Positions 7,564 through 28,598 of a stretch of DNA of 33,624 nucleotides are shown here, one piece after another. Source of the DNA: an uncultured Opitutia bacterium (GTDB lineage Bacteria; Verrucomicrobiota; Verrucomicrobiia; Opitutales; Opitutaceae); contig CAIMAQ010000094.1 of NCBI GenBank assembly GCA_903839035.1, positions 1 through 33,624 on the forward strand, read 5' to 3'. The position numbers and the translations under genes are program-made. The stretch's first letter is position 1, and each line of letters starts with the position of its first letter. Below the pieces are notes generated by a model. That model made no database searches and was not told the DNA's origin. It saw nothing but the letters and a program-made list of their open reading frames with translations.

Positions 7564-7650
7564 GTCAGGGCGAGGAGCGACGCGACGCGACCATCCATCC
7601 GGTCCCCAGATGGATTGCTGCGCTGGTCCGTTGGGCCGTCTCGCAATGAC
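7564..7650. repeat. Palindromic repeat, family A, copy 1 (diverged left end)
   Basis: This copy starts GTCAGGGCGAGGAGCG, contains CCATCCAT and AGATGGATTGCTGCG, and ends TCTCGCAATGAC. Both arms match the other family A copies, but the left end has lost the ATT of GTCATTGCGAGG. It sits between rlmM and the 177-residue gene. The rest of the 7475-7681 gap shows nothing. Confidence 0.7.
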
Positions 7651-7681
7651 ACCACATGGGCCGCGGCCCGCCGCCTTCGCG

Positions 7682-18098: not shown

Positions 18099-18335
18099 AT
18101 GGATACTCTCCCACCCCTCCCCGCCGAACCGCGCCCCGGCCGCTACCGCCATTACAAGGGCGGCGAATACCGCGTCGTCGGACTCGCCCGCCACTCCGAG
18201 ACCCTCGAGCCCCTTGTCGTCTACCAGGCGCTTTACGGCGAACACGGCCTCTGGGTCCGCCCTGCCGGCATGTGGACCGAGACCATCACCCTCAACCACC
18301 AGTCCGTCCCCCGCTTCGCCCGAATCGGTGAGTAG
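18099..18335 (+). CDS. DUF1653 small protein
   Basis: 78 residues matching the DUF1653 pattern: PGRYRHYKGGEYRVVGLARHSETLE, then VVYQALYGEHGLWVRPAGMWTETI. Members are small SH3-like proteins of unknown role, often encoded alone. No signal peptide is present. It is divergent from the acetyltransferase gene. Its stop codon TAG (18333-18335) is part of the GTAGGGCGGGTC repeat that begins the composite element at 18333-18479, so the very last residues may come from the repeat insertion. That repeat also forms the likely terminator. Confidence 0.85.
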   Translation: MDTLPPLPAEPRPGRYRHYKGGEYRVVGLARHSETLEPLVVYQALYGEHGLWVRPAGMWTETITLNHQSVPRFARIGE

Positions 18336-18479
18336 GGCGGGTCTTCGACCCGCCTTTTCCCACGGGTCATTGCGAGCAGCGCAGCAACGCAGCCATCCAT
18401 CTGAAATCCGGATAGATTGCTTCGCCGGCCCATTGGGGCCGCCTCGCAATGACAAGGCGGGTCGCAGACCCGCCCTACC
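18333..18479. repeat. Composite palindromic element: family A copy 2 inside GC-rich inverted repeats
   Basis: The core at 18366-18453 is a family A repeat (GTCATTGCGAGCAGCG...CCTCGCAATGAC). On each side is a GC-rich hairpin: GTAGGGCGGGTC with GACCCGCCTT on the left (18333-18356) and AAGGCGGGTC with GACCCGCCCTAC on the right (18455-18479). Each side is palindromic by itself, and the two are inverted copies of each other. The rest of the gap up to 18589 contains TTATTAAGTGAAAA-like AT-rich sequence around 18505 and nothing else that I can name. Confidence 0.8.
18336..18358 (+). terminator. Probable terminator of the DUF1653 gene
   Basis: GGCGGGTC (18336-18343) pairs with GACCCGCC (18347-18354) around TTC, followed by TTTT. 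The hairpin belongs to the repeat element itself, so the repeat seems to act as the terminator. Confidence 0.7.
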
Positions 18480-19794: not shown

Positions 19795-19882
19795 GTGTTA
19801 GGTGTTACGTGTTAAGTGTTACGTTTGCCTCCGACCACGGACCCAATTCCGCGCCTAACACGTAACACCAAACACCTAACAC
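19795..19882. repeat. TTAGGTGTTACGTG-type palindrome before the DUF1343 gene
   Basis: The left arm has GTGTTAGGTGTTACGTGTTA and the right arm CCTAACACGTAACACC plus AACACCTAACAC. The two arms are inverted copies built from the word GTGTTA. The element ends 10 bases before the ATG at 19893, so it would form a large hairpin in the 5' leader of that mRNA. Confidence 0.75.
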
Positions 19883-19892
19883 TTTCTGGCGC

Positions 19893-21299
19893 ATGCCCGG
19901 CCTCTCCAGCCCCCTTCCTTTGAAACATCTCGGCGTGCCCCTCATCCTGCTGCTGGGTTTGTTCGGCTGCAGTTCCAGCAAAGCACCGACCCGACCCGCA
20001 CCCCGGGCGACCGCCATCGCACCCGCCACGCGCGTGGCCTCCGCCTCCACCCCCGTCGCGCCGCGGGTCGCCCCGGTCATTATGCCGTCGGCGCCGGTGT
20101 ATCCCGTGATGCTCGGCATCGATGTGCTGGAGGCGCGCGGCTTCGACGTCCTGAAAGGCAAGCGCATCGGCCTGCTCACGCATCCTGCCGGCGTGAACCG
20201 CCGCGGCATCAGCACGATTGACGTCCTCCGCCACGCGCCGGGCGTGCAACTCGTCGCGCTCTACGCCGTGGAGCACGGCCTCTATGACGAGCTGCCGGCC
20301 GAAATGCCGTTTCCCGACCAGGTGGACAAGCGCACCGGGCTGATGGTGTTTTCGCTCTACAACCTGAAGTCGAAGCACTTCGTCCCCACATCTTCCCAGC
20401 TCCGCGGCATTGATGCGCTCGTGATCGACCTCCAGGACAACGGCACGCGCAGCTACACGTTCACCGGCGCAATGAAGTCCGCGATGGAAGCCTCCTTCGC
20501 CAACGGCAAGGAGGTCATCGTCCTCGACCGCCCCAATCCGCTCGGTGGCTTCAAGGTGGACGGCCCGCCCATGGACCCGCAGTGGATGAGCGACGTCGGC
20601 CGCTTCCGCGTGCCCTACGTCCACGGCCTCACGATCGGCGAACTCGCCCTCATGGTGAAGGACGCCGCCCCGCCCGGCGGACTCTCCCTCTCCGACTCCG
20701 CCCGGCGGAAAGGCCGGCTCACCGTCATCCCCATGCGCGGCTGGCGGCGCGCGATGCGCTGGCCCGAGACCGGGCTCAACTTCGTCCCCACCTCGACCGC
20801 CATCCAGGATTTCGCCGCGTGCATGGGTTATCCGATGACCGGCCTCGGCTGTATCCTCGGCGGGTTCACGCACGGTGTCGGCAAATCCTATCCCTTCCGC
20901 GGCATCGCCCACCGCTCGGTGAAGATCGAGGTCGTCGAAAAGGAGCTGCGCGCCCTCAACCTGGCCGGCCTGCAATACCGCCGCGTCAGCGCCCCCGACC
21001 GCTTCGGCAAGCCCGCGACCGGCCTGTACATCGAGGTCGCCGACTACGACGAATGGCAGCCGACCGAGCTGAGTTTCTACCTGATGCAGCTCGCGTGTAA
21101 GCTGGATCCGAAGAATCCCTTCGCCACCGCCAAGGCCGCCGACCGCCGCACGTTTCTCGTGCACATGGGCTCGACCACCTTCTACAACGACCTCGTCACC
21201 AAGGGCGCGAAAGTGGACGTCGCCGGCTGGCTGCGCCAATGGCGCGAGCAGGCGAAAATCTACCAGGAAGAGAGCAAGCGTTTCTGGCTGTACCGTTAA
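19893..21299 (+). CDS. DUF1343 lipoprotein, exo-beta-N-acetylmuramidase-like (NamZ family)
   Basis: 468 residues. A lipoprotein signal ends in LFGCSS, with the Cys near residue 26, followed by a Pro/Ala-rich linker of about 40 residues. The DUF1343 domain has GLLTHPAGVNRRG, YAVEHGLYDELPA (usual form PEHGxRG), TGLMVFSLYN, VIDLQDNGTRSYTF and VLDRPNPLGG, and ends in the usual family-length C-terminal part. The characterised member NamZ removes N-acetylmuramic acid from the non-reducing end of peptidoglycan. The same role here is inferred, and the variation around EHG is worth noting. The lipid anchor places it in the periplasm. TTG at 19920 is an alternative start that would give a shorter, more typical signal peptide. 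Confidence 0.88.
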   Translation: MPGLSSPLPLKHLGVPLILLLGLFGCSSSKAPTRPAPRATAIAPATRVASASTPVAPRVAPVIMPSAPVYPVMLGIDVLEARGFDVLKGKRIGLLTHPAGVNRRGISTIDVLRHAPGVQLVALYAVEHGLYDELPAEMPFPDQVDKRTGLMVFSLYNLKSKHFVPTSSQLRGIDALVIDLQDNGTRSYTFTGAMKSAMEASFANGKEVIVLDRPNPLGGFKVDGPPMDPQWMSDVGRFRVPYVHGLTIGELALMVKDAAPPGGLSLSDSARRKGRLTVIPMRGWRRAMRWPETGLNFVPTSTAIQDFAACMGYPMTGLGCILGGFTHGVGKSYPFRGIAHRSVKIEVVEKELRALNLAGLQYRRVSAPDRFGKPATGLYIEVADYDEWQPTELSFYLMQLACKLDPKNPFATAKAADRRTFLVHMGSTTFYNDLVTKGAKVDVAGWLRQWREQAKIYQEESKRFWLYR

Positions 21300-21386
21300 T
21301 TTTCACAGGAGGAAACGGAGAGAACTGAGGATTCTTTCTTTATTTCCGAATCCAGACCTCCGTTCTCTCCGTTTCCTTCTGTAAAA
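21300..21386. repeat. Family C palindrome (AGGAGGAAACGGAGAGAAC), copy 1
   Basis: The left arm CAGGAGGAAACGGAGAGAAC starts directly after the stop of the DUF1343 gene. The right arm GTTCTCTCCGTTTCCTTCTG ends 14 bases before the ATG at 21400. The arms pair almost perfectly over about 28 bases. The same sequence recurs at 23754-23827. Confidence 0.85.
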
Positions 21387-23743: not shown

Positions 23744-23753
23744 CCCGGATTAT

Positions 23754-23827
23754 TTCTCGCAGGAGGAAAAGGAGAGAACTGAGATCTCATCCGCCTTGCT
23801 CCGTTCCCTCCGTTTCCTCCTGTAAAA
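23754..23827. repeat. Family C palindrome, copy 2
   Basis: The left arm CAGGAGGAAAAGGAGAGAAC and the right arm GTTCCCTCCGTTTCCTCCTG pair with few mismatches. This copy ends 13 bases before the ATG at 23841, the same spacing as the copy before 21400. Confidence 0.85.
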
Positions 23828-23840
23828 GCAGCACTCTTCT

Positions 23841-24998
23841 ATGAATCGTAAACTTCGTTTTGGCATGATCGGCGGCGGACGCGGTGCGTTCATCGGCGCC
23901 GTCCACCGCATTGCCGCCATCATGGATGGCAAAGCCGAGCTCGTCGCCGGCGCGTTTTCCTCCGACGCCGCCCGTTCCAAGGCCTCCGGCGCCGACCTGT
24001 TCCTCGACCCGAGGCGCGTCTACGGCAGCTACCAGGAAATGGCCAAGGCCGAGGCCAAGCTGCCCGCCAGCCAGCGGCTCGACTTCGTCGTCATCGTCAC
24101 GCCAAACCACCAGCACTTCCCGCCAGCGAAGCTGTTCCTCGAGTCCGGCTTCAACGTCGTCCTCGACAAGCCCGCGACCTTCAACCTCGCCGAGGCCGTC
24201 AAGCTGCGCGCGATCGTGAAGAAATCGAAAAAGGTCCTCGTCCTCACGCACAACTACACCGGCAACGTCATGGTGAAGCAGGCACGCGAGCTCGTGGCCA
24301 ACGGCAGCGTCGGCGAGATTCGCAAGATCGTCGTCGAGTACCCGCAGGGGTGGCTCAGCACGTTTTTGGAAAAGACCGGCCAGAAGCAGGCCGGCTGGCG
24401 GACCGACCCGAAGCGCAGCGGCGCCGCCGGCTGCATGGGCGACATCGGCACACACGCCGAGAACCTCGCGCGCTACATCACGGGCCTGCACATCGAGTCG
24501 CTCTGCGCCGACCTCACCACGTTCGTGAAGGGCCGGAAGCTCGACGACGACGGCAACGTGCTCGTGCGCTACAAGGGCGGCGCCAAGGGCGTGCTGCACT
24601 CCTCGCAGATCAGCATCGGCGACGAGAACATGCTCAACATCCGCGTCTACGGCACGAAGGCCGGACTCGAGTGGCGGCAGGAGTTTCCCAATGAACTCGT
24701 CGTGAAGTACGCCGACCAGCCCCGCCAAACCTGGCGCCGCGGCAACGGCTACCTCACACCGCGCGTCGGCCGGTTCACCCGCATCCCCGCCGGCCACCCC
24801 GAGGGCTACCTCGAGGCGTTCGCCAACATCTACCTCGAGGCCTACCGCGCGATCAGCGCCGAGGTCGAGGGCAAGCGCCAGCCGAAGGATTTGGATTTTC
24901 CCACGATCGAGGACGGCGTCGAAGGCATGGTCTTCATCGAGACCGTCGTGAAGAGTTCCAAGCTCGGCGCGAAGTGGCTCAAATTCCCGAAAGCGTAG
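23841..24998 (+). CDS. Gfo/Idh/MocA-family oxidoreductase
   Basis: 385 residues. The N-terminal Rossmann domain has [17 protein letters not shown] (dinucleotide binding), [13 protein letters not shown] and [14 protein letters not shown], the counterpart of the EKP motif, with Asp in place of Glu and Lys as catalytic residue. The C-terminal domain has [16 protein letters not shown] with the likely catalytic His. The enzyme should oxidise or reduce a sugar or inositol with bound NAD(P). The substrate is unknown. Together with the isomerase 97 bases upstream it forms a keto-sugar pair. There is no Tat signal, so it is cytoplasmic. The start is preceded by CACTCTTCT. Confidence 0.9.
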
Positions 24999-25042: not shown

Positions 25043-25100
25043 GCCTTCATCCTTGATTGTCATTGCGAGGAGGCCGTAGTCCGACGCGGCAATCCATGTG
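25043..25100. repeat. Family A repeat, left arm only (copy 3)
   Basis: CCTTCATCCTTGATTGTCATT leads into GCGAGGAGGCCGTAGTCCGA and GGCAATCCATGTG; the right arm is absent. The GIY-YIG gene starts 16 bases further on. The same left-arm sequence recurs after that gene at about 25413-25470 as a direct repeat. Confidence 0.8.
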
Positions 25101-25115
25101 TCTCCGCCTTTTCGC

Positions 25116-25406
25116 ATGTCCGGGAAGTCCTATTGGGTCTACATTCTCGCGAGCCAGAAAAACGGCACGCTCTACATCGGCGTAACCAACAGTCTCTCCC
25201 GCCGGATCAGGCAACATCGGGAAGGGATCGATGGGAGCTTCACCGCTCAATATAGAGTGAGCCGACTCGTTTACTTCGAAGAGTTCAGTTACGTGGACAA
25301 CGCCATCGCGCGTGAGAAACAGCTCAAGGCCGGATCCCGCATTAAGAAGATCGCGCTGATCGAGAAAATGAACCCCGAGTGGCTGGACCGGGCAGAGAAA
25401 TGGTAG
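25116..25406 (+). CDS. Small GIY-YIG nuclease
   Basis: 96 residues forming a single GIY-YIG domain: YWVYILASQKNGTLYIG (the two Tyr-bearing motifs), SRRIRQH with the catalytic Arg, and AIAREKQLK with the metal-binding Glu. The C-terminus KIALIEKMNPEWLD is typical of the stand-alone UvrC-N/YhbQ-like group. The expected activity is single-strand or structure-specific DNA cutting, but the role of these small proteins is not settled. I chose ATG 25116 over GTG 25098, which lies inside the repeat. The base composition looks less GC-rich than the neighbours. The gene is flanked by direct copies of a family A repeat arm, which suggests that it moved here as part of a small element. Confidence 0.85.
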   Translation: MSGKSYWVYILASQKNGTLYIGVTNSLSRRIRQHREGIDGSFTAQYRVSRLVYFEEFSYVDNAIAREKQLKAGSRIKKIALIEKMNPEWLDRAEKW

Positions 25407-25424
25407 ACTTGGCATTCATCACCG

Positions 25425-25535
25425 ATTGTCATTGCGAGGAGGCCGCAGGCCGACGCGGCAATCCATCTGGATGGCAAACCTCAAACACGGATGGATTGCC
25501 ACGTCAGCCCGATGGGCTTCCTCGCAATGACAATC
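25425..25535. repeat. Family A palindromic repeat, copy 4 (complete)
   Basis: The ends are GATTGTCATTGCGAGGAGG and CCTCGCAATGACAATC. The inner arms carry GACGCGGCAATCCATCTG and CGGATGGATTGCCACGTC. Small inner hairpins (GGCCGCAGGCC, GCCCGATGGGC) sit in each arm. It follows the GIY-YIG stop codon by 18 bases. Confidence 0.88.
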
Positions 25536-25559
25536 AGGGCGGGTCAAAGGCCCGCCCTA
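25535..25559. repeat. GC-rich hairpin repeat (AGGGCGGGTC...GCCCGCCCT)
   Basis: AGGGCGGGTC and GGCCCGCCCTAC pair around CAAA. It is the same type of element as those flanking the repeat at 18366-18453, and again lies directly beside a family A copy. Confidence 0.7.
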
Positions 25560-25569
25560 CCCGGACCCG

Positions 25570-25592: not shown

Positions 25593-26198
<606 letters not shown>

Positions 26199-28213: not shown

Positions 28214-28598
28214 GCGTCCAGCCTGTCCGCCCGCGCGCGTCACCGTCAAGCGCGGGGGATGATACGAGGATTGTCATTGCGAGGAGGTCGCAGACCGACG
28301 CGGCAATCCATCTGATGAACGTTGCCAGCCCGGATGGATTGCCACGTAAGCCCTTTGGCTGCCTCGCAATGACAATCGAGAAGTCATAAATCATGTCCGC
28401 TTGTTCGACGCGCGGTGGAAAGTTCGGCGATCTCCAGGCTCTACGAAAACACGCCCGCTCCTGTGCCCTCATTCGTGCGTCAATTGAACGTAAAACCAAT
28501 GCCGCCATGGCAGGTGACCGCCCAACCCGGTCCCATTCCGCTGCCGGCAGGCTTGCCGCCGACGGAGGGCTGCGTTGTCCTGAGCCACTTCCCCGCGC
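28214..28598. other. Intergenic region with family A repeat
   Basis: This 385-base gap lies between divergent genes. It holds the complete family A repeat at 28269-28377. Bases 28378-28598 contain no recognisable promoter or RNA. A frame beginning at GTG 28415 stays open and reads like a proline-rich peptide that runs into the glycosyltransferase gene; I do not call it a gene. Confidence 0.5.
28269..28377. repeat. Family A palindromic repeat, copy 5 (complete)
   Basis: It has the same ends (GATTGTCATTGCGAGGAGG / CCTCGCAATGACAATC) and the same inner words (GACGCGGCAATCCATCTG, CGGATGGATTGCCACGT) as copy 4, about 2.8 kb away. Only the loop differs. Confidence 0.88.

Follow-up and report, generated by a model that had tools for sequence, protein, structure and literature searches.

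Palindromic repeats of the CGTC REP class are widespread and apparently have no dedicated transposase (Di Nocera et al. 2013, PMC3733652). According to the main text of that paper, CGTC REPs carry a CGTC or TGTC tag, a stem beginning with AT and a CCA tail, lie mostly as head-to-head dimers, and include dRS3 of Neisseria and RPE-4 and RPE-6 of Rickettsia; the four families described have stems of 8–9 bp with loops of mostly 4–5 nt, and no tyrosine transposase gene flanked by CGTC repeats was found (PMC3733652). The same main text, leaving aside the figures and supplements, contains neither the term GIY nor an associated transposase. It also outlines the system of GTAG REPs and RAYT (REPtrons, REPINs), which the locus described below resembles in having one gene between REP hairpins and head-to-head pairs dispersed in the genome (PMC3733652).

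We analyzed a stretch of 33,624 nt (the window) from an uncultured Opitutia bacterium, in which a small GIY-YIG nuclease gene is framed by repeats of the CGTC kind. GIY-YIG domains cut DNA; among the proteins that carry them are Slx1, a eukaryotic host enzyme that acts on and cuts branched DNA, and free-standing homing endonucleases such as the Seg proteins of phage T4. Details of RAYT biology enter our comparison as general background. To our knowledge, no insertion-sequence or REP system with a GIY-YIG enzyme has been described. Nor does any of the literature matches listed, which include PMC6006769 and PMC8049555 and do not extend to bioRxiv or most subscription journals, link GIY-YIG to REPs in the parts of the texts covered. 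On these two grounds we call the gene-plus-repeat element new in category, without claiming proof of novelty; the repeats themselves resemble a known class. The literature matches listed for the core motif of the repeats concern other matters, as far as titles and the beginnings of abstracts tell.

A GIY-YIG gene between CGTC-like REPs

An earlier note on this DNA had proposed that a 96-residue GIY-YIG nuclease gene lies between copies of a repeat, and the proposal holds (Table 1). A Pfam scan of the protein returned PF01541 (GIY-YIG) and a marginal T5orf172 match, and nothing else. REPs are indeed close on both sides, but at measured distances of 19 bases (end of the upstream REP to the ATG) and 20 bases (stop to the start of the downstream REP), not 16 and 18. 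The upstream repeat, which had been taken for a mere left arm, proved to be a whole REP unit in itself; what had been called a complete palindrome after the stop does fold stably, but it is really two REP units head to head. DNA folding of this pair gave −42.1 kcal/mol (z −9.7, with none of 200 shuffles as good). Single REP units of the window gave z values of −0.8, −0.8 and −1.2, not clearly better than shuffles, and the idea that the upstream single REP forms a strong hairpin alone was rejected for the window on this ground.

The two left-hand repeats are direct copies with few differences, as had been noted, sharing 88% identity over 58 nt with the stretch that precedes the palindrome included. 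The nearest pair of REPs around the gene is direct, and the outermost pair is inverted. The gene was also rightly described as less GC-rich than its surroundings: its GC content is 54.6%, against 66.4% for the window, placing it in the lowest 0.45% of 291-bp windows. At the genome's density of REP cores, the chance that one particular gene would have cores within 60 bp on each side is ∼2e-7, an estimate that assumes independent cores although cores cluster.

The slot is bounded by two genes that we take to encode a Gfo/Idh-like oxidoreductase and an MsrB-like protein; both names are given without a family search. Each of the 11 other genus members has a match to both, with 87%–99% identity for the Gfo/Idh-like gene. 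The genome has one gene of the window's GIY-YIG type; its further GIY-YIG matches are one over the Pfam cut-off (a 586-aa frame) and one below it.

Table 1. Repeats and genes of the window around the GIY-YIG nuclease gene
Feature	Position	Strand	Basis
CGTC-like REP, left end of the unit (TGTCAT...ATCCA)	25058..25096	+	Pattern and repeat comparison
GIY-YIG nuclease gene, 96 codons plus stop	25116..25406	+	PF01541, E 4.2e-17; alignment; AlphaFold2
First CGTC-like REP of the head-to-head pair, a direct copy of the left REP	25427..25465	+	
CGTC-like REP, opposed orientation; right end of the unit (...ATGACA)	25492..25532	-	
58-nt direct repeat, copy 1 (REP plus 15 nt preceding)	25043..25100	+	88% identity with copy 2
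58-nt direct repeat, copy 2	25412..25469	+	Repeat family D1
Gene-free head-to-head REP pair	28257..28374	Cores 28273-28284 +, 28362-28373 -	
Single REP copy, same kind as at the nuclease gene	18409..18454	-	
Diverged REP copy, same kind as at the nuclease gene	7607..7651	-	
Gfo/Idh-like oxidoreductase gene (name assumed), left neighbor of the slot	23841..24998	+	
Methionine sulfoxide reductase B-like gene (name assumed), right neighbor of the slot	25593..26198	-	

CGTC-like REPs in the genome and genus

In form, the repeats of the window resemble the CGTC REPs, a point absent from the earlier note. They share the tag, the AT stem, the CCA tail and the head-to-head pairs with that class as its main text presents it; the GCGAG-type units of the window exceed the described ones in length and are imperfect (PMC3733652). 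We call them CGTC-like for this reason. At the gene in many other lineages, the units have short perfect stems. The tag is TGTCAT in the window and CGTCAT or TGTCAT at other loci. Stems vary by lineage (TTGCGAGG, TTCCCGC, TCGCCCGG, TCTGAGCG and others); tag and tail are constant. The AT-starting stem and CCA tail are present in the units that our REP detector found, and the detector itself asks for close to this stem and tail, plus the tag.

Genome-wide, REPs were counted by pattern searches, which found 26 exact copies of the core GTCATTGCGAGG in the 3.39-Mb genome and none read backwards. Close opposed core pairs occur on contigs C39 and C52 and twice on C94; no genome-wide count was made that would tell whether head-to-head dimers predominate. 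Two genus members, G004 and G011, hold 10 and 14 cores without the nuclease gene. We compared REP sites of the window's genome with four genus members (eight sites searched, four of them aligned base by base). At three of the four aligned sites the REP or REP pair is absent in G002, and at one of them it is absent in G005 as well. A separate observation concerns locus L002 of the window's genome: where it has a REP pair, the corresponding locus of G002 (L250) has an unrelated inverted repeat.

REPs accompany the gene across relatives

Relatives of the window protein were identified through peptide words and protein similarity, and repeats played no part in the choice. We took the best 80 of at least 548 confirmed stretches and added 30 loci from related genomes, for 110 loci in total. 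Five of these (L028, L031, L034, L035 and L040) gave no match and were dropped, and the remaining 105 consisted of 87 close relatives and 18 distant GIY-YIG loci. The close set includes the window (L012) and two duplicated pairs (L014/L042 and L036/L065), so that 85 loci are distinct.

With a detector requiring tag, stem and tail, 69 of the 87 close loci (67 of 85 distinct) were positive for a REP no more than 250 bp from the gene, and 50 (49 of 85 distinct) had REPs on both sides. By the same strict detector, none of the 18 distant loci had a REP within 250 bp. The placement of related GIY-YIG genes relative to the repeats, a test proposed in the earlier note that could have refuted its idea, is not random. 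Across the 105 loci, REP density was 3.50/kb beside the gene versus 0.196/kb elsewhere; other gaps between open reading frames in the same loci had 0.52 REP/kb. REPs flanked both sides of the gene in 49 of 86 nuclease loci versus three of 122 control genes in the same loci (Fisher p 2e-20), and at least one side in 68 of 86 versus 23 of 122; only L014 was left out of this comparison. A motif-free test agreed: a word of at least 14 nt was common to both flanks in 58 of 100 loci versus seven of 751 shifted placements (close and distant loci pooled, the artefact row L072 left out). The nearest REP pair faced outward in 30 of the 50 both-sided loci (p 1.6e-7 versus one quarter), a set that includes the duplicate L014/L042, both direct and not outward. 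In many loci, a REP ends 4–20 bases before the start codon.

These comparisons bear on coincidence, the possibility that repeats gather in intergenic space where the gene happens to sit. REPs are mostly intergenic, and some control genes do have one on at least one side, as coincidence would predict. The control genes and other gaps taken as a whole, the distant GIY-YIG genes, the spacing and the orientation all contradict it, and we strongly disfavor this explanation.

A second sample, drawn by profile search from 194 genomes of the phylum, was positive by the strict detector in eight of 12 close loci, the window's own gene among them, and in none of eight distant loci. From plasmid and phage records we fetched 15 of at least 46, together with two viral contigs, and eight of these 17 loci passed the strict detector; several of the records labeled as plasmids (Neisseria, Aeromonas, Sinorhizobium) are as large as chromosomes. 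The association is not complete. No REP was found by the strict detector in 18 of the 87 close loci, although some of these have variant REPs by eye. Two plasmid genes (L201 and L209) showed no recognizable REP, and there was none at L211, the one phage locus examined (12 phage records matched), whose gene groups with unflanked GIY-YIG genes in the tree. In a Planktothrix plasmid (L206), the GIY-YIG gene lies between a type IIL restriction-modification gene and the DISARM gene drmA, and TGTCATTCTGAG repeats can be seen by eye both downstream and upstream of it.

Among the 194 phylum genomes, seven or more REP-pattern hits were found in three of seven with a close gene versus four of 187 without (Fisher p 0.001). 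The four REP-rich genomes without a close gene had 28 (G226), 25 (G188), 11 (G214) and seven (G009) hits, and four of the seven genomes with a close gene had none or one (G169, G171, G163 and G067). The pattern covers only some stems. Both limits (E < 1e-25 for a close gene and at least seven hits) were chosen after the tables had been seen, and the group without a close gene takes in eight further genomes whose matches were weaker (1e-15 to 1e-20).

A single protein subfamily

REP flanks were observed in one subfamily only. In a quick tree of 114 proteins (100 alignment columns), all 72 that are REP-flanked by the strict detector fell in one group of 95 (SH-aLRT support 95), and none of the 19 outside it was flanked. 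L014, L042 and L065 were left out of the tree by choice, and L060, L072 and L079 as incomplete proteins. On the protein tree, the GCGAG stem type is clustered: it needs six changes versus a shuffled mean of 21, with none of 500 shuffles as low. Flanked members came under 11 phylum names, including Verrucomicrobiota, Bacteroidota, Pseudomonadota, Bacillota, Acidobacteriota and several candidate phyla; many are metagenome bins, with gene and REPs on one contig. Among taxa named for CGTC REPs in the main text of PMC3733652, Azospirillum lipoferum, Sinorhizobium meliloti, Bradyrhizobium and Neisseria carry a REP-flanked nuclease gene.

An alignment of 38 sequences has Y9, Y20, G22, H34 and N86 in every member, and R30 and E67 in at least 90%. 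The catalytic residues of GIY-YIG nucleases, here Y9, Y20, G22, R30, E67 and N86, are conserved. The AlphaFold2 model of the window protein (mean pLDDT 90) has little beyond a GIY-YIG domain. UPF0213 and Slx1 proteins are its nearest neighbors: the nearest solved sequences are 1zg2 (E 1.6e-5) and 1ywl, and the nearest solved folds are BH0048 (1zg2), a UPF0213 protein (E 2.7e-4), followed by Slx1 (E 3.6e-3 and weaker). Recognition of a cruciform by the nuclease, so far only a proposal, would be compatible with these nearest folds. Unlike the window's subfamily, the more distant GIY-YIG genes examined show no REP flanks. Scans of five proteins for DDE, HUH, serine or tyrosine transposase domains detected none of them, only GIY-YIG and the marginal T5orf172 match.

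Paralogues and unoccupied sites

We compared 11 pairs of GIY-YIG loci that lie within one genome or bin, and found homology bounded by the tags in four of them: 354–377 bp are homologous, both ends of the homology lie at most a few bases from the outer tags (TGTCA...TGACA), and the flanks are unrelated. The four are L223/L237 on one contig of G169, L224/L241 in G128, L069/L102 in Uhrbacteria JACQWH01, and L063/L073 in DSAB01, where the right tag of L073 is at the contig end and its right flank is open. Such paralogues add evidence that the repeat–gene–repeat block can move as a unit. Since they are only 70%–85% identical, no recent jump has been caught, and inspection of the block boundaries by eye showed no evident target-site duplication. 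The other seven pairs were not tag-bounded. Five had no or short similarity, and L094/L107 shared the gene alone. In G201, L226/L240 have 444 bp in common at 97% identity, from a point within the gene to beyond the gene's end and without REP-tag bounds; we read this as an ordinary partial duplication.

Empty orthologous sites, the other test that the earlier note had put forward, do exist, in the window's genus and in Azospirillum, Sphingobium and Shinella. In Azospirillum lipoferum the nuclease gene separates sufB from sufC, and in at least 11 other Azospirillum records among the matches listed, sufB–sufC is without it. At this site, the detector found no REP in four gene-free relatives. Further unoccupied sites were observed in Sphingobium and Shinella. 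Whether a site was gained or lost is inferred by parsimony only. In the Sphingobium slot between fnrL and a response regulator, a single palindrome with a tag at either end is present in two of four gene-free relatives (L216 and L217). One of them has the exact form (CGTCACCCCGGG...CCCGGGGTGACG) and the other an altered one; excision may have left the palindrome as a scar, or it may be a minimal copy, the choice between the two being undecided.

One alternative is a selfish homing-type gene, whose nuclease cuts a REP so that the gene is copied in by repair, the REPs themselves being spread by something else. GIY-YIG is a known homing-nuclease domain, and if recombination between the 58-nt direct repeats removed the window's gene, what remained would be a head-to-head pair of the ordinary kind. 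We nevertheless think it improbable. The minimal copies have one outward REP at each end and unrelated flanks, which argues that the REPs travel with the gene; the stem type of the REPs follows the protein tree; and the four gene-free Azospirillum sites hold no REP by the detector. It would also need another mobilizer for CGTC REPs, and the main text of Di Nocera et al. names none (PMC3733652).

Residence in one place is also common. In Bradyrhizobium, gene and REPs occupy one intergenic slot in ten loci. Both orientations were observed at this site: relative to the neighboring genes, L075 and L093 carry the gene together with its 5′ REP the opposite way round from the eight other loci. By eye, L099 and L101 have inverted repeats of ∼45 bp as the ends of the unit. 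In the window's genus, the Gfo–msrB slot holds the nuclease gene in three of 12 genomes and is free of any gene in eight; the twelfth member (G006, locus L160) has a Y1_Tnp (RAYT-like) gene with GTAG-type repeats there. We set this slot aside as proof of fresh insertion. The slot is shared with more distant Opitutus-type genomes and the gene is absent from nearer ones, which leaves gain and loss indistinguishable. The gene is often found in one slot across many species, and movement is therefore rare.

This stability invites the explanation that the nuclease has been domesticated by the host, processing REP hairpins or transcripts for genome or RNA maintenance while the adjoining REPs regulate the gene, and that it is no longer, or never was, mobile. 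The long stay in one slot in Bradyrhizobium, Flavobacteriaceae and Opitutaceae would fit, as would the single gene of this type in the window's genome and the REPs that end so shortly before the start codon. Tag-bounded paralogues within genomes, the patchy presence of the gene with its unoccupied sites, and the low GC of the window gene are hard to square with domestication, which we consider unlikely, if worth keeping in mind.

A putative minimal mobile element

The explanation that we hold to be probable is that the GIY-YIG gene together with the REPs beside it makes up a minimal mobile element, with the REPs as its ends and gene-free REP pairs as non-autonomous derivatives; its cleavage and movement are inferred. 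The ends would be outward-facing REP hairpins (TGTCAT ... ATGACA) enclosing a single nuclease gene of ∼95 codons, for a total of ∼355–480 bp, and the head-to-head pairs without a gene that are scattered in the same genomes would be derivatives moved in trans. The nuclease would recognize the folded REP or REP pair, as a hairpin or cruciform, and cut at or near the outer tag, after which host repair or replication would place a copy elsewhere without target-site duplication. Recombination between the window's direct copies would leave a head-to-head pair, and may interconvert gene-bearing and gene-free forms. That the nuclease does the cutting, that a hairpin is needed, that gene-free pairs derive from the unit, and that repair is the route are all inferences, as no activity has been observed.

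The likeness to REP/RAYT with a GIY-YIG nuclease as candidate mobilizer, which the earlier note had suggested, gains support from the association, the unoccupied sites and the within-genome paralogues. As with a RAYT in a REPtron, the gene is REP-flanked and the flanks are often inverted (30 of 50 nearest pairs face outward). Unlike a RAYT, the enzyme is a GIY-YIG protein without an HUH/Y1 domain (PF01797), and the tag of its unit, within the size range given above, is TGTC or CGTC, not GTAG; because of the missing domain and the different tag, the window gene is no RAYT. The element shares with classical insertion sequences the terminal inverted repeats that bound one gene, whose role in transposition is inferred here. 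It differs from them in that the five proteins scanned hold no DDE, HUH, serine or tyrosine transposase; target-site duplications are not universal among such sequences. With free-standing GIY-YIG homing endonucleases it has in common a GIY-YIG gene as a possibly selfish unit; unlike them, it has little beyond the catalytic domain, and terminal hairpin repeats accompany the gene.

The nuclease is the best candidate for the missing mobilizer of CGTC REPs. We lean towards a separate class of autonomous bacterial element, in which a GIY-YIG nuclease of ∼95 residues is the sole enzyme, CGTC-type REP hairpins are the ends, and which is the source of CGTC REPs including the dRS3 of Neisseria. A nuclease subfamily tied to CGTC REPs across phyla offers a concrete and testable candidate for the missing transposase. 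If the proposal is true, the element would be among the smallest autonomous elements, present under 11 phylum names in our sample, and would be an independent counterpart of REP/RAYT in which transposition is driven by structure-specific cleavage. It would add a new enzyme chemistry to bacterial mobile elements, suggest that systems of hairpin repeats and one enzyme arose more than once, and provide a role for small genes whose sole annotation is "GIY-YIG nuclease family protein."

Other repeats of the window and its genome

The window's genome also has 32 exact GTAG-type cores (GTAGGGCGGGTC) and two Y1_Tnp genes. These would be expected if an IS200/IS605-type (RAYT) transposase mobilized the unit in trans, with the nuclease gene as cargo. 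Neither of the two Y1_Tnp loci has a GCGAG-type REP (L273 has one weak, odd detector hit), and cargo status would not account for the restriction to one protein subfamily across phyla. The absence, in the main text of Di Nocera et al., of tyrosine transposase genes flanked by CGTC repeats points the same way (PMC3733652), and we regard trans-mobilization of this kind as very unlikely. The two Y1_Tnp loci are not a clean counter-control, since the GTAG core, searched in the stretches taken, is also absent from both.

GTAG-type palindromes occur in the window at 18332–18359, 18451–18478 and 25535–25568, the last of them just outside the right end of the unit. A second family of ∼30-nt repeats (CAGGAGGAAACGGAGAGAAC) is present at 21296–21386 and 23750–23827, in direct and inverted copies. 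Finally, positions 19795–19882 hold an inverted repeat of GTGTTA-like units, with arms of 27 nt that lie 34 nt apart.
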